A stretch of 64,000 nucleotides of DNA from Persicimonas caeni (GTDB lineage: Bacteria; Myxococcota_A; Bradymonadia; Bradymonadales; Bradymonadaceae). The stretch is taken from the NCBI RefSeq assembly GCF_006517175.1, contig NZ_CP041186.1:434001-498000 (forward strand), given 5' to 3'. Shown here one piece after another: positions 9,216 through 23,184 of this stretch. Under the pieces are notes generated by a model. That model was not told where the DNA came from, made no database searches, and saw nothing but the letters and a program-made list of their open reading frames with translations. Every line of letters begins with the position of its first letter. The stretch's first letter is position 1. A program made the translations under genes and the position numbers.

Positions 9216-9510
9216 CACCCTCGTCTGCGCGCGCTTTGTTCGGTGCGTGGGCATCTTGCCCTCGTCTGCGAGCGCTGCAAGCACTCGCTTTGTTCGGTGC
9301 GTGGGCATCTTGCCCTCGTCCGCGAGCGCTGCAAGCACTCGCTTTGTTCGGTGCGTGGGCATCTTGCCCTCGTCTGCGAGCGCTGCAAGCACTCGCTTTG
9401 TTCGGTGCGTGGGCATCTTGCCCTCGTCTGCGAGCGCTGCAAGCACTCGCTTTGTTCGGTGCGTGGGCATCTTGCCCTCGTCTGCGAGCGCTGGAAGCAC
9501 TCGCTCCGAA
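9216..9510. repeat. 54-bp tandem array (five units) of a hairpin core
   Basis: Five near-identical 54-bp units begin at 9239, 9293, 9347, 9401 and 9455, and a partial unit precedes them. Each contains TTCGGTGCGTGGGCATCTTG, within which GGGCA-TCT-TGCCC forms a hairpin, and a second imperfect hairpin GCGAGCGCTGCAAGCACTCGC (split here by a short loop). All reading frames stay open because 54 is divisible by three, giving spurious peptides on both strands. There are no unique spacers, so it is not a CRISPR. The same core recurs at 28651-28954 and 63409-63527. Confidence 0.9.
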
Positions 9511-13181: not shown

Positions 13182-14360
13182 CTACGACAACGCATCCTCG
13201 ACCGAGTCATCCAAAAGCGTGAGGCGGTCGTATGCCGTAATCTGATGGATGCGCGCTCGCCGATGCAGTGTGCCCCATATCTTGATGTGCCGGTTTGCAA
13301 AGTGGGCCTGGCCGGCCGTGGCGTAATCTTCGGCCTTCAGGTTCACCCGGGCAGTCAGCAGATCGTCGCCATCTTGCAGCCGAAGCGTGACCTGGCCCTG
13401 CGGCCGTCCGTCACTCCCCGGCGAGCCCGACAACTCGATGACCGTCCCGATGAACGAACTCTCTTCTGCCTCCCGTTGAGGACGCAGGCGATTGGCCAAC
13501 TGCTCGACCACGTCGAAGTGCTCGGAGCGCAGCTCGACGCATGACGCGGGGGCATCGACGGGACGTCGTCGGGCTGCCCAGTGGGACGCGACGGTGAGCG
13601 AGGAGGTTCGCCCCGCCGGCTGCATCTCGAGAAGCGCATCACATAAGTTGGCGCTCAGGCGCTGTTCAGCGGGGCTTTCGAAGAGCGATTCGATCTCGTC
13701 GCGGTTCGTGCGAGTCACCAGCGCGTCGAGCGCTTTCATCAGCGATCCAGTGACCTTCCGAGTGAACGGCTCCGGAGCGAGGCGCTCGCCGTTTTCATCG
13801 GTCAAAGCCAACTGTTCGTCGCCCAGCTCCACAGGAACAGCGTCCAACGGGCAAATCACACGCGCTATGAAGCTCCCCGGCTCACTGGCGATTCGGCACG
13901 CCTTGATGAAGGTCGACGCTTCGGCCCTGCTAAGCCGCGCGTAATATGCTTGCGGATCCACGACCGAGCACGCCGAGGCGAGCAAGGCTTTTCGGGCGCC
14001 CCCGAAGAGGTTGAGGCCATCTTCGATGAGAATCGTCCCGTCGGCGACCGACGGGTCGTCGACTCGAAAGCGCACGACATCGGCCGGGCCGGTCAACAGG
14101 TCGTTGAGGACCTGCTCGGCGGCGCGCTCCTCGTAGCCGGCGATGTCGCTAATCGCCTCGGCCATACGCCGATACTGATGCTCGGGAAACTCCGGCGTCA
14201 TCGGCACGACGACTTCCTGCCCGTCCCCATCGCGCCGAAACACGGCCACTTCGTCCGGCAAATCGGGAACGCGACGCCAGTCGTTCGCCAGCAGGTACTG
14301 ACGAACGTCGGCCGCCTGCACCTTCTCGACGAGATGTCGGTCGAGACCTTTATAGCTCAT
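13182..14360 (-). CDS. Unknown protein, partner of the DUF4365 gene
   Basis: This 392-residue soluble protein has no signal peptide, no membrane segment and no motif I can name. The N-terminal part (about 1-75: VRQYLLANDWRRV) looks like a small alpha/beta domain. The middle is helical. The C-terminal part (about 300-385: FIGTVIELSGSPG, GQVTLRLQDG, HIKIWGTLHRRARIHQI) looks like an OB-fold-like beta barrel, which would suit nucleic-acid binding. Its ATG overlaps the end of the DUF4365 gene by 11 nt, so the two are translationally coupled and probably act together. The setting suggests anti-phage defence; this is inferred from context only. Confidence 0.7.
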   Translation of the reverse strand: MSYKGLDRHLVEKVQAADVRQYLLANDWRRVPDLPDEVAVFRRDGDGQEVVVPMTPEFPEHQYRRMAEAISDIAGYEERAAEQVLNDLLTGPADVVRFRVDDPSVADGTILIEDGLNLFGGARKALLASACSVVDPQAYYARLSRAEASTFIKACRIASEPGSFIARVICPLDAVPVELGDEQLALTDENGERLAPEPFTRKVTGSLMKALDALVTRTNRDEIESLFESPAEQRLSANLCDALLEMQPAGRTSSLTVASHWAARRRPVDAPASCVELRSEHFDVVEQLANRLRPQREAEESSFIGTVIELSGSPGSDGRPQGQVTLRLQDGDDLLTARVNLKAEDYATAGQAHFANRHIKIWGTLHRRARIHQITAYDRLTLLDDSVEDALS

Positions 14361-14901
14361 TGCCGATCTCCTCGTAGCGTGACGCCTTGACCATCAGCGC
14401 GCGCAACTGCTCGGGCGAAAACACCTGCACCTGAGGGATCTCGATGCGTCGACTCGTCTCGTTATCGACCTCTTCGGCCCCTCGCAGGCTGTACCAATAA
14501 CAACATCGACGCGCGACCAATTGTTCGGCCCCAAACTCCAGCCATTCGTCCTCGTTGGCCGGCAGCACCAGCACAACGAGCAACCGCGGTGTCTGCGAAC
14601 GCTCGCGTAGCTCGTCGTAGTTCTTCATCTTGAGGTCGAAGACGACCTGACCTTCTCGAATTGTAGCGTTGGAGGTTGCTTTGAGCTGCAAGTCCAGCAC
14701 GGGCGAGTAAACTTTCGAATCTTCGGCGAGCTTCCCCTTCGCTCGAATGGTTACGTCGATACTGTCGCGGTCCTTCGACACACGATCGCACGAGAACGCC
14801 GTCTTGCTGGCGACGGCGTGCACGTACGCGTAGCTGAGTTCTTCCTTGATGTCGTTGGTGCTCAACACGCTTCGGGCTTCACGCTGGGGTCTAGCCGACA
14901 A
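14350..14901 (-). CDS. DUF4365-domain protein, putative PD-(D/E)XK nuclease
   Basis: At about 183 residues this protein is essentially one DUF4365 domain. Counting from the TTG at 14901, it shows Glu20/Glu21 in the first helix, Asp49 in DSIDVTI, and Gln72-x-Lys74 in LDLQLKAT. That E...D...QxK pattern suits a PD-(D/E)XK nuclease core. FDLKMKNYDELRE and TPRLLVVLVLP are also typical of the family. A GTG at 14868 (VLSTNDIKEEL) is an equally good start, since neither has a clear ribosome site. The downstream partner gene overlaps by 11 nt. The family is often found in defence neighbourhoods, and nuclease activity here is predicted, not shown. Confidence 0.75.
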   Translation of the reverse strand: MSARPQREARSVLSTNDIKEELSYAYVHAVASKTAFSCDRVSKDRDSIDVTIRAKGKLAEDSKVYSPVLDLQLKATSNATIREGQVVFDLKMKNYDELRERSQTPRLLVVLVLPANEDEWLEFGAEQLVARRCCYWYSLRGAEEVDNETSRRIEIPQVQVFSPEQLRALMVKASRYEEIGNEL

Positions 14902-16891: not shown

Positions 16892-18067
16892 ATGGAGTTC
16901 AAAGTAAGCTACTACGACGCGGCACAGCGCGAGATTCTCGAAGCGCATGAGAAAAGCCCTTCAATCAACCGGCTAGTTCAACGGGGGTTGGAAATCTCGG
17001 CTGATGAGCTAATGGTTCATACGATGTTCTCAGAACAAATGAACGAAGATGGATTCCGAACCTACGAAGAGCTAGCTGCACAGGCTGGCTCACGTGTTGG
17101 CTGGTTTGAAAGTTACTTTAATTTCGGCGAGGACGGACTTTTCGCCCATCTCCCGCCTTCACGGGTGGAAAAGCGACTCACGCAAGGAATAGGTGAAGGA
17201 ATCGCCATCATCGCAATGAATCGAATCTATGACCTAACTGAGGCTGACTGGGAAAGGATAGGCGAAAGAAACGACTCCAAGACGTTGGACCATCAATACG
17301 AACTGGCCAGCACAGGTCAACGTTTCGTCCAAGTTGAGGGCAAAGGCACCGTTCTCGGCCTCGATGGATTCGGACGAAAGACCGCGTCGATCTCACGGGC
17401 GAAATCCAGTATTCTCGCCAAGAAGGAGGAAAGCAGTAGCCCGATAGAAAGTGCCCCTTGCGACCGTTTTGGGGTCATCACTGCAATTCCTTCCGAACCC
17501 GGTGCCATACCAGACGTCTATCTCATCGACCCAGCAGGCGTCGCTCCCGATATAGCTCCACAAAAATACAAACTTCTTAGTCGGCTCTCTTACTATGAGC
17601 GACGACTTTCGTATGTGAGCAAATTTCACTTTCTAATGGTGCTCCGCAATCGTATCAACGCAATCCACGACAGCGAACAATTCGAAGACCTCGATGGCAT
17701 CAAGCTTGTAGGGCAGGATGGTACACCATTCGGTTTCCCTCAAACTCGCGACTCGCTAGTGACAAGTCGCGGTGGTGAAGTATTTGGGCGCGTTCTACCA
17801 GTCTCTCAAGAGGAAGCGCTCTTTATTGGGTTCGAACAAAGACTTTTCTACACGTTGATTGGCCAGTCGTTCCAAGACGTGAACTCGTTCAAGATACACC
17901 GCCACGAGGTTGTGATTGATACTTTCGTTACGACAACAATTCCCGGAGCAGATGGCCGCTCGAGACTACGAGTCAGAGGGCGAGCACACCTAAACTCGGC
18001 AGGAATTGCTTTCGGCCAGGTAGATCTGTCGCGTCCGTATTCGAGACGTTACTTCAGAAAGTCATAA
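16892..18067 (+). CDS. Unknown protein with a restriction-nuclease-like motif
   Basis: This 391-residue soluble protein lies 45 bp after the Mrr-type gene on the same strand, with lower GC and different codon use, which suggests separate acquisition. I do not recognise the family. A segment at about 108-155 resembles a PD-(D/E)XK core: a helix with GEGIAIIAMNRIYD, then an Asp in KTLDHQYELA, then the strand RFVQVEGKGT with ExK followed by Gly-Thr, as in many nucleases ending EAKGT. The C-terminal part (about 290-390) is beta-rich. Nuclease activity is an inference from this one region and from the defence-like setting. Confidence 0.7.
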   Translation: MEFKVSYYDAAQREILEAHEKSPSINRLVQRGLEISADELMVHTMFSEQMNEDGFRTYEELAAQAGSRVGWFESYFNFGEDGLFAHLPPSRVEKRLTQGIGEGIAIIAMNRIYDLTEADWERIGERNDSKTLDHQYELASTGQRFVQVEGKGTVLGLDGFGRKTASISRAKSSILAKKEESSSPIESAPCDRFGVITAIPSEPGAIPDVYLIDPAGVAPDIAPQKYKLLSRLSYYERRLSYVSKFHFLMVLRNRINAIHDSEQFEDLDGIKLVGQDGTPFGFPQTRDSLVTSRGGEVFGRVLPVSQEEALFIGFEQRLFYTLIGQSFQDVNSFKIHRHEVVIDTFVTTTIPGADGRSRLRVRGRAHLNSAGIAFGQVDLSRPYSRRYFRKS

Positions 18068-19759: not shown

Positions 19760-21004
19760 CTAAAAGTCCTCTTCATTATGCGCATAATTCAAGTAAGCGC
19801 TCGAGAGCATCGATGTTCCGGTGTAGAAAGGAACGGAATTGGGATCATTCGACATAAGAACAGAAAAGTAGGTTGCCGATTCACCAAACTCCTTCTCCAC
19901 AAGCTCTGCTAGTTGCTGGGTCATCTGCTCTCTACGCCCAAGACTGTAAAAATCGGGATACTCCATCAGGTTTACCAGGTATCGCTCACTAGCGCTGATG
20001 GATATTCTTCCGTCTTCCATCATCAAGGCCCGTACTAGCTCCGAAGTGTTGTCATACAGCCACAACCAGCCCCCCCCGAGTTCCCCCATTGGAGGTTGCC
20101 CTCCGCTGAGCTCCGGTAGGACCTGCTCTACAAGTCGATCGAAACGCGTTCGAATCTGGCGCGCTCGTGATTCCTCCAGTGTGAAGTACGGCTCGAGCGA
20201 AATCTTACTGTGCTCGATGGCGGTCTCAACACTCTCTGGGGTCACCAGTTCGTGTGGATCCGGAAAGCGATCCGCGATCACAATGAAACTAAAGAGCTCT
20301 TTCGGCAGCTGGTGAGTATCTACGAGCCACAGGATATCGTGAAGCAGCCGGCGAGCATGATTCTCCGTGCGAACGATAAACCCCACTTCGTGCTGTAGCT
20401 GTTCGAAGCGGAGCCCAAAGCCTGATAGCTCATCGTAAGATGTCGCGGCTGGCATTGAGCGCTCGGAAGGCAGCCGCCATTCTCGCTCATGGGTCCAATC
20501 GAGTGGCCGATCACGAGTAGGGTTGTAGGCTACGTATCTATACTGCTCGCGCAAAGGCAGCGCAGATTCGGGAAACACTCGTGCACCGTCTGTTCGCTTT
20601 CGAGCCCTTTGTTCGTCTGTTAGCCCATAGATGACGGGGCGTGCCCCGAGGGCAAACAAGTCTTCCTTCTTGAACATGACTCCAAAAGTGCTCATGTGTT
20701 CGCCGCGTGCACTGCGGTCCTCTCCGGCAATCAGAAAGGCAGCAAGCGGCATTTCTGAAAAACAAACTGCCGGTCGCGGCCCGTACACCGTTCTTCTGCC
20801 GTTCCGAATTGACCATGTGGGAAGAACCTCTTGCGAACGAAGGATGTGGCGCAAAAGGAAGAACGGTGACAGCACCCAGTCCTCCACCAAATTCCCGAAA
20901 GACCACTCCTCCGGCAATGTAGTTGCGCCATCTGACCTCAGGTCAACGCTGCGCACGAAATGGACAAGTCGCTGGGAGAGATCAAAGCGTCGGCTGTTCT
21001 TCAT
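19760..21004 (-). CDS. Putative abortive-infection protein, AbiGi-like N-terminal half
   Basis: This is a 414-residue soluble protein. The first half begins LVHFVRSVD and continues with GPRPAVCFSEMPLAAFL, STFGVMFKKEDLF and GARPVIYG. That order (H-F near the start, C-F-x-E/D-x-P-L, F-G-x-x-F-x-K, G-x-x-P-V-x-Y) matches what I know of the AbiGi family (PF10899). HEREWRLPS follows at about 168-176. The C-terminal half (about 250-414) is mostly helical and unrecognised. It is the last of three minus-strand genes, 110 bp after the two-TM gene, with lower GC than the genome. It is probably defence-related; the AbiGi assignment is by eye. Confidence 0.6.
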   Translation of the reverse strand: MKNSRRFDLSQRLVHFVRSVDLRSDGATTLPEEWSFGNLVEDWVLSPFFLLRHILRSQEVLPTWSIRNGRRTVYGPRPAVCFSEMPLAAFLIAGEDRSARGEHMSTFGVMFKKEDLFALGARPVIYGLTDEQRARKRTDGARVFPESALPLREQYRYVAYNPTRDRPLDWTHEREWRLPSERSMPAATSYDELSGFGLRFEQLQHEVGFIVRTENHARRLLHDILWLVDTHQLPKELFSFIVIADRFPDPHELVTPESVETAIEHSKISLEPYFTLEESRARQIRTRFDRLVEQVLPELSGGQPPMGELGGGWLWLYDNTSELVRALMMEDGRISISASERYLVNLMEYPDFYSLGRREQMTQQLAELVEKEFGESATYFSVLMSNDPNSVPFYTGTSMLSSAYLNYAHNEEDF

Positions 21005-21114: not shown

Positions 21115-22098
21115 TCAGGCTCCACTTCCGTGATCGGGCAGCTTGTTGATGAGTTCCTTCAATAGGTCCATTGGATGGGTTGATTGTGAACCTGTTTCCA
21201 CGACTTCACTGGTGCTTTCCTCTCCAAAGAAGCGCTGCGCTAATTTCTGCTTGACCGATGTACGCTTATCGTCGGGGAGATCTGCCAAGAATGGCCCAAG
21301 AGCGATGAGTTCCAGTTCCGTCCTTCGAAACTGCAACTCATCTTTGCGTGAGTTTGAAGCCTGCTTGCCTGCATAGCCGGTAAAGAGGAGTATCGCCGTC
21401 GAGAAGAAGACACGGCGCGCGATTCCCATCCACGCAACTGTTTCCGGAACTGCTGTTTCTGTCGATGGCCCAGCAGCCGAAAACACGACCACAGCAAAAC
21501 CAATTAGCCCCAAGAATCCAAGCACAGCCAAAACGTGCCACCAAAAAGCACTTCTCCGCGCTCGGTTTGCGGCATCTTGATACCCCCGTGCAAGTGCCGG
21601 CGCCCCAATATATCCAAGAGCTTCCTTGGCGTCTTGCTGATACTTCATGAGCTTGGCAACACGGTTTCTCCCGTCCTGGACTAACTCATCTAGCGCGTGT
21701 AAGCCCTGCAAGACTTCTCTTTGAAGAGTCTCGTCGTCAGAATCCGTCAATCCTCCGAGCATTTCGCTCCGACGATGTCGATCCGGCCCACGGACCTGCT
21801 GGCGGTTTGGCTCATATGCGCCCCATGCGATTTCCCCCTCGATGCCAGCGGTATGTAGAACAACACTTAGTGCTTTACCGATTGCAGACGGGATCCAGTC
21901 TTCAACTCTAATAACGCCTTCGAGTGACTCATCGTTCGCCAGGAACGCCCAATCAATCCGTTGTGGGTTATCATCTTCAGCTTGAACAAATCGAACTTCG
22001 GCTACTTTCGTTCCATCCTCTAAAATGTCCCATTTCCCGCTACGCGGACTATTTGAAAACTCGCTGCGACTAACACTGTACATCAAGACCGCTCCCAT
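21115..22098 (-). CDS. Two-TM membrane protein with C-terminal cytoplasmic helix
   Basis: This 327-residue protein is unrecognised. The N-terminal half is soluble (start at 22098, or at the Met codon at 22083, MYSVSRSEF). A helical linker (about 125-180) leads to two hydrophobic helices, about 187-210 (WWHVLAVLGFLGLIGFAVVV) and 222-242. A charged cytoplasmic segment with SRKDELQFRRTELELIALG and a disordered tail follow. Soluble sensor plus membrane helices is a recurring plan for membrane-disrupting defence effectors, but that is analogy only. It sits between the Mrr-type gene (72 bp upstream) and the AbiGi-like gene, with the same low GC. Confidence 0.65.
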   Translation of the reverse strand: MGAVLMYSVSRSEFSNSPRSGKWDILEDGTKVAEVRFVQAEDDNPQRIDWAFLANDESLEGVIRVEDWIPSAIGKALSVVLHTAGIEGEIAWGAYEPNRQQVRGPDRHRRSEMLGGLTDSDDETLQREVLQGLHALDELVQDGRNRVAKLMKYQQDAKEALGYIGAPALARGYQDAANRARRSAFWWHVLAVLGFLGLIGFAVVVFSAAGPSTETAVPETVAWMGIARRVFFSTAILLFTGYAGKQASNSRKDELQFRRTELELIALGPFLADLPDDKRTSVKQKLAQRFFGEESTSEVVETGSQSTHPMDLLKELINKLPDHGSGA

Positions 22099-22170: not shown

Positions 22171-23184
22171 TTAACCATCAGCAGCCTCCTCCACCGCCTC
22201 CGGAATAAACACCCGCTTCAGCGGAATCACCGCCTGATACTTCGAGCTCAAATCGTCGTAGTACCGCAGCACCAAGTCCAAGAACTCCTCGCCGTCGATC
22301 AACCGCAGGTTGCTCCGCGTCGCCGCAAACTGCGTCGCGTCCCGGCTGAACCCGCCGAGGGTCACGAATAGCCCGACCTCTGACGCCTCGACCGTCCCGT
22401 ACAACGACGACACCTCCGCAATCCCAACCGTCCCGGACGTGCTCTTGACTTGGACCTTTATGATGGGCGGCTCGATGCCGAGCTCGTCGCGGTGGGCGAT
22501 GACGTCGATGCCGCCGTCGCGTGAGTCGCGGGTGGTGCGGGCGTGGTAGCCCATAACCTCCATGAGGTTGGCGACGAAGGACTCGAGCGGGTGGCCTTTG
22601 AGTTCGGCTTCGATACGCTTTTGGACGAAGTCACGGGTGATCTGCTCGACCTCTTCAGCCACGAGCGAGACGCTGTCGTCGTCTTCGGTCTCGCTGACGA
22701 GCTCGCGGCCCTCGAGCGCGGCGAGGTATTCTTCGGCGTAGTTTTGGACCTGGAATAGGCTCATCGCTGAGCCGAGCTCGTAGAGCGCGCCCTGGGAGAA
22801 GTGGGTGCGCGAGACTTCTTTGAGCCACTCGACTTCGCGTTGGTGCGGGTAGCCGCGCAAAAAAGAAGGGTCGTATCGGTAGTCCGACTTGATGCGGCCA
22901 ATGTGGATCTTCTTGGTGATCTTGGAGGGGTAGAGCACGATTTCGTCGCGCTCCATCTCGTGCAGAAACCGATAGAGCATGCCGGCCTTGACCGGGATCG
23001 CACCGTCCTTTTCGTCGGGGAAGACATCGCCGAAGCGCGCTTTGAAGGCAGTGCGGGTCGCGGCGAGTTCGGCCAGGTCGCCCATTTGCGGCCAGCCAAT
23101 GCCGATACGGTTTTGTTGGCGGAAGAGTCTATCGGCTTCGCCGGAGCGGCCTGCGTGCAGGCCCCAGCAGATGACGTCGGACAC
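22171..23184 (-). CDS. Mrr-type restriction endonuclease
   Basis: This is a 337-residue protein. The N-terminal domain (about 1-110: VICWGLHAGRSGEADRLF, GIGWPQMGDL, KITKKIHIGRIKSDY) resembles the EVE/PUA-like or MrcB-type module of modification-dependent nucleases. The C-terminal Mrr domain has HPLESFVANLMEVMGY, Asp227 in DGGIDVIAH, and Gln245-x-Lys247 in KVQVKSTSG, the PD-(D/E)XK signature. It should recognise and cut DNA with unusual bases; the base is unknown. It is the first gene of the minus-strand trio. Confidence 0.88.
   Translation of the reverse strand: MSDVICWGLHAGRSGEADRLFRQQNRIGIGWPQMGDLAELAATRTAFKARFGDVFPDEKDGAIPVKAGMLYRFLHEMERDEIVLYPSKITKKIHIGRIKSDYRYDPSFLRGYPHQREVEWLKEVSRTHFSQGALYELGSAMSLFQVQNYAEEYLAALEGRELVSETEDDDSVSLVAEEVEQITRDFVQKRIEAELKGHPLESFVANLMEVMGYHARTTRDSRDGGIDVIAHRDELGIEPPIIKVQVKSTSGTVGIAEVSSLYGTVEASEVGLFVTLGGFSRDATQFAATRSNLRLIDGEEFLDLVLRYYDDLSSKYQAVIPLKRVFIPEAVEEAADG

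Follow-up and report, generated by a model that had tools for sequence, protein, structure and literature searches.

Two genes lie on the reverse strand of the window, the whole 64,000-nucleotide stretch of Persicimonas caeni DNA analysed here, which comes from a host genome assembled as a single contig of 8.05 Mb. The upstream gene, A, encodes a DUF4365 protein and the downstream gene, B, a larger partner; their coordinates are collected in Table 1. The stop codon of A (14350-14352) and the ATG of B (14358-14360) give an overlap of 11 nt, exactly as the initial annotation had described it, and translational coupling of the two genes is probable from this arrangement. In most relatives the overlap is 4 nt (ATGA). 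The ORF finder starts A at TTG 14901, which probably lies too far upstream; because relatives begin right before the motif N-x-x-K-E-E in the alignment, the true start is probably GTG 14868 or TTG 14865, with a product of about 171 residues. The length of protein A is thus given here as 171-183 residues, depending on the start, the upper figure counting from TTG 14901. A scan for sigma-70 promoters found nothing.

Table 1. Features of the A-B gene pair (window coordinates).
Feature	Position	Strand	Basis
Gene A: DUF4365 protein / PDC-M02A, predicted DREN-type PD-(D/E)XK nuclease	14350..14901	-	Pfam, PADLOC, model
Gene B: 392-residue partner, PDC-M02B; C-terminal SSB/PriB-like OB fold	13182..14360	-	PADLOC, model
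Overlap of the stop end of A with the start of B, 11 nt	14350..14360	-	sequence
DNA coding for the OB domain of B (residues 294-390)	13191..13481	-	model and fold match

Searches against PADLOC-DB 2.0.0 matched A to PDC-M02A (7.6e-59, residues 13-176) and B to PDC-M02B (6.6e-151, residues 1-383 of 392), with the two genes adjacent on one strand, and the locus very likely belongs to PDC-M02. The two proteins and their order are those of the catalogued system, with nearly full-length matches, and no difference in composition was found; the catalogue entry gives no mechanism. The abbreviation stands for Phage Defence Candidate and, according to a citing paper (PMC13356809), the category originates in a guilt-by-embedding study (Payne et al. 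2024 preprint). The earlier claim that no described system consists of these two parts therefore has to be withdrawn: the pair as a unit is not new but a catalogued candidate anti-virus system, to which mechanistic clues are added here. A literature search found no paper that names PDC-M02 or tests it experimentally, and a search for DUF4365 returned nothing recognisably about the A-B pair.

The conservation of the pair was assessed by a scan with A as the query, and with no selection on B, across genome contigs from 84,980 species, which yielded 28 loci. These span about eight phyla, including Myxococcota, Proteobacteria, Planctomycetes, Bacillota, Verrucomicrobia, Acidobacteria, Actinobacteria and Chlamydiae. 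As B lies immediately downstream of A at every one of these loci (28/28), although they were chosen regardless of B, the arrangement is far beyond chance. Pairwise divergences of A and B are correlated (34 pairs; Mantel r 0.80 against a maximum of 0.32 in 2000 permutations), a value to which shared host descent can contribute. The initial annotation had taken the tight overlap to imply a functional pair and had named recurrent adjacency in other genomes as the check; both the conserved neighbourhood of the partner and the joint divergence bear it out. The host genome itself has two DUF4365 genes, each followed by B (2/2). Within the phylum the distribution is patchy, the PDC-M02B model being matched in 20 of 379 genomes, with A directly upstream of B at nearly all loci of those 20. 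B does not accompany the remaining DUF4365 proteins of the phylum, most of which lie in longer open frames, so that it goes with the subfamily of A. Long open frames also hinted at A-B fusions; these were rejected, A and B being in separate, overlapping frames.

Protein A matches Pfam DUF4365 at 2.3e-25 over nearly its whole length, and its AlphaFold2 model has a mean pLDDT of 92.4. The best match of the model among solved folds is the DREN nuclease of SPARDA (9qbq_C; Z 13.4, rmsd 3.3 over 135 residues), followed by the archaeal Holliday-junction resolvase Hjc (Z 10.3). A sequence-based profile search of solved structures, run with the profiles of both A and B, returned nothing significant. 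In the model, Asp49 lies in strand 48-53 (beta2) and Gln72 and Lys74 in strand 68-76 (beta3); by strand and by the QxK spacing they are the counterparts of Asp41, Gln60 and Lys62 of DREN, whose catalytic residues in beta2 (Asp41) and beta3 (Gln60 and Lys62) have been tested by mutation (PMC12205087). Each of the three is invariant among the relatives of A (34/34) and Asp44 is kept in 33/34. Of the E...D...QxK core noted earlier, the D...QxK part stands, whereas the glutamate does not, Glu20 being kept in only 22/34. The model thus carries the predicted PD-(D/E)XK fold on which the earlier description of A as nuclease-like had been staked, and A is predicted to be a nuclease of DREN type with a catalytic D-Q-K. 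DREN alone is monomeric and inactive; a filament of the Argonaute renders it tetrameric and thereby active, as a nonspecific collateral nuclease (PMC12205087).

No family in Pfam or NCBIfam matched B at the cut-off. Its model is of somewhat lower quality (mean pLDDT 86.9, pTM 0.70), and residues 294-389 are predicted to form an OB fold of the SSB/PriB type (Z 9.3 to SSB, rmsd 4.0 over 91 residues), in line with the OB-like barrel previously suspected in the C-terminal part of the partner. A Z score near 9 reflects a common fold in this modelled domain and does not by itself prove binding of single-stranded DNA. Among predicted viral structures, Foldseek matched B to a 381-residue protein of Leptospira phage LE1 (2.7e-21), in agreement with the A-B pair found in that phage by sequence, and to a DUF6575 phage protein (1.7e-6). 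In hhalign comparisons, residues 82-350 of B, that is, the middle region and the beginning of the OB domain, align with DUF6575 proteins of the PDC-M63B type with a score of 41.6 and a probability of 55%; 60 column-permuted controls scored at most 22.1 and reversed controls 13-14. The alignment includes the GSF motif, Gly162-Ser163-Phe/Tyr164, which is among the most strongly conserved features of B. The PDC-M63B-type proteins are in turn homologous to the PD-T4-10B type (99.3%), but profile comparison detected no direct match between B and PD-T4-10B-type sequences, and B has no match to Pfam DUF6575. From these comparisons the core of B appears to be distantly related to DUF6575 proteins.

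Some features of the DUF6575 family itself were also seen. A small gene with a CPP-x-D/E-A-like motif precedes most of the DUF6575 genes encountered (L090-L095, L101, L103, L105), and one such small upstream gene matches PD-T4-10A. Members of the family seem to fall into two groups by their C-terminus, which is OB-like in one (the PDC-M63B type) and helical-looking in the other.

The surroundings of the pair were described earlier as defence-like, which holds for both copies in the host genome. The window copy has as neighbours an Mrr type IV enzyme, PDC-S02 and two transposases, and the stretch at 12-22 kb is low in G+C (0.54-0.63, against mostly 0.65-0.68). The second PDC-M02 copy (L058:877-9332) adjoins a DRT4/DRT6-type reverse transcriptase, a Schlafen-AlbA ATPase protein and an HsdR-like type I restriction protein. 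Defence families near the pair numbered 208, against 72 in random regions, and included type I methylases and MADS genes (alignment-mode PADLOC scan; the figures are totals, not per-gene counts); this enrichment lends weak support to a defence role. The pair also occurs on plasmids, where several copies stand alone among metabolic genes, so that defence neighbours are frequent but not universal. In Mycobacterium abscessus prophages it forms genes 1 and 2 at the prophage end, and Leptospira phage LE1 carries it. A search of viral contigs with A gave two matches, one with B as well and the other on a contig that ends just past A; a search of viral contigs with B's own peptides gave no match. The pair is a horizontally mobile unit.

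Several other features of these regions were observed. In the window, a 391-residue ORF (16892-18067, + strand) follows the Mrr-type gene after 45 nt, with the same orientation, and searches of Pfam, PADLOC, NCBIfam and PHROGs gave it no significant match; it is a possible partner of the Mrr-type enzyme. The PADLOC candidate PDC-S02 is an Mrr-catalytic protein (22174-23184, - strand; 5.1e-132), neighboured by an unmatched 327-residue ORF (21118-22098) and a gene for a DUF4427 protein (19760-21004). At 9232-9505 a 54-bp unit is repeated in tandem (5.1 copies, 98% matches), with open reading frames running across the array, and its repeated peptides also occur in ORFs near other loci (L092, L090). 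The island of the second PDC-M02 copy also holds a 439-residue ORF without a match.

A survey of lesions covered 58 distinct loci, several of them from metagenome assemblies. Gene A is damaged at seven, by an in-frame TAG at four and by a frameshift, the loss of the 5' part and a transposase remnant at one each, whereas B is open at all seven (7/7), in one case as far as the contig end. The reverse case, a broken B with an intact A, was found at one locus only (L024). Set against the gene lengths, the skew has p 0.0016 in a test that was post hoc and drew partly on metagenome assemblies. The four A genes with a TAG (L034:9893-10483, L006:2588-3136, L025:1523-3016 and L005:711-1508) have one each and never TGA or TAA; the positions all differ, the frame is conserved past the TAG, and B is open. 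In one genome (G169) both copies of A are affected by TAG. Recoding of the stop codon is not favoured as an explanation: in one affected genome, long ORFs within a 20-kb stretch also terminate at TAG. On a Pigmentibacter plasmid (L080:8654-9000) a transposase fragment is joined to what appear to be the last codons of A, before an intact B. The recurrent damage to A while B is kept suggests that A is costly, and the pattern fits A as a costly effector and B as harmless without A.

Among known systems, SPARDA resembles the pair in its nuclease: A has the fold of DREN and carries its catalytic D, Q and K. SPARDA differs in that A lacks an APAZ domain, for which its at most 183 residues, nearly all DUF4365, leave no room. 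The partner in SPARDA is a short Argonaute (MID-PIWI); B has no Pfam match at the cut-off and no Argonaute among the structural matches listed, all of them OB folds from a list filled by the OB domain, with residues 1-293 hardly probed. PD-T4-10 and PDC-M63, the DUF6575 systems, likewise have two genes, a small one first and a second of about 400 residues, the latter distantly similar to B in its middle and at the start of the OB domain. Their small first gene is, however, unrelated to DUF4365 (hhalign 0.2% between the DUF4365 profile and these small partners), and in PD-T4-10 it is the second gene that is the toxin. EAT16, from extracellular contractile injection systems, has a DUF4365 with D..D..QxK; it kills E. 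coli, and this toxicity was lost on mutating three of the four conserved D, D, Q and K residues, but it is a two-domain secreted effector, and the available part of the report describes no B partner (PMC11297309).

A defence role for the PDC-M02 pair is likely. In our preferred reading, to which we give a probability of roughly 0.5, B acts as a sensor or regulator and A as a nonspecific DNA-degrading nuclease. The observations brought to it are the conservation of the pair, the nuclease fold with its invariant D-Q-K, the OB fold, the defence neighbourhoods, the mobility and the joint divergence of A and B computed here. The pair would act as a horizontally mobile two-gene anti-phage module in which the monomer of A is probably inactive, as is that of the DREN domain in SPARDA, and assembly would let A degrade DNA nonspecifically. 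B would be the regulator, its synthesis tied to that of A by the overlap at its start; it would bind and hold A, and its OB domain would recognise nucleic acid that signals an infection, the probable candidates being single-stranded DNA and a replication intermediate coated with SSB. Upon this signal B would let A molecules come together, and activated A would destroy phage and host DNA alike, so that the outcome would be cell death by abortive infection.

The main rival holds that the pair is a toxin-antitoxin system, with A a constitutively active nuclease toxin and B its antitoxin, whose OB domain would not sense DNA but act on the DNA-binding site, by mimicking or blocking it; takeover by a phage would remove B and free A. 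The two-gene overlapping layout agrees with this, and lesions in A with B kept are as expected of a toxin and a harmless antitoxin. On the other side, B, with 392 residues and several domains, exceeds most antitoxins in size, and DREN alone is inactive in SPARDA, so that an antitoxin may be needless. The commonest gene order in toxin-antitoxin systems places the antitoxin before the toxin, against which the toxin gene would here stand first. A validated distant relative, PD-T4-10, is an experimentally demonstrated abortive toxin-antitoxin system with a toxic second gene (DUF6575) that is neutralised by the first (PMC9519451). With this precedent in its favour, we regard a toxin-antitoxin pair as conceivable, if somewhat doubtful. 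The same precedent can be read the other way, with B as the toxin by descent with the DUF6575 protein and A as its modulator, and as an analogy it is a counterpoint to our preferred reading, since the toxin there is the DUF6575 protein and not the product of the upstream gene. The alignment of B with PDC-M63B-type proteins well above its permuted controls, their homology to the PD-T4-10B type and the Foldseek match to a DUF6575 phage protein all speak for such a descent. But the hhalign probability is only 55%, PD-T4-10B-type sequences are not matched directly, the invariant catalytic site is in A rather than B, and it is A that the damage hits; a toxic B is accordingly very improbable.

Direct restriction, in which a nuclease complex of A and B would recognise phage DNA (for example by modified bases or unusual ends) and cut only that DNA, so that the cell survives, would suit the PD-(D/E)XK fold of A, the possibility that the OB protein B is a DNA-recognition subunit and the Mrr-type restriction enzymes among the neighbours. 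Yet DREN, the closest solved nuclease, is nonspecific and collateral, and the repeated damage to A with B retained suggests a cost; we consider restriction unlikely. The similarity of A to Hjc and of B to PriB and SSB, and the copies on plasmids and prophages, could also point away from defence, to mobile elements carrying a module for DNA repair or recombination, in which a Holliday-junction-resolvase-like nuclease would work with an SSB/PriB-like helper. SPARDA DREN ranks above Hjc as a match of A, however, the active site is D-QxK as in DREN, and the patchy distribution and defence-island neighbours argue against a repair function, which we judge highly unlikely.

Returning to a sensing or regulating B and a DNA-degrading A, we tentatively suggest, as a possibility and not yet a probable one, that PDC-M02 is a cousin of SPARDA that does without the Argonaute: its collateral DREN nuclease would be licensed by a sensor with an OB fold, responding to phage replication DNA, instead of a guide. 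The sensor superfamily would be common to DUF6575 systems such as PDC-M63, one scaffold thus serving different small partners. PDC-M02 is widespread but, as far as the literature search showed, without characterisation. The links of A to DREN, with its mutated catalytic residues, of B to SSB-like OB folds and, distantly, of B to DUF6575 give the catalogued candidate a mechanism that can be tested, and they raise the question of whether a collateral nuclease can be activated by an OB-fold sensor with no guide involved. In that case guided and unguided immune systems would have the DREN nuclease in common as a module.
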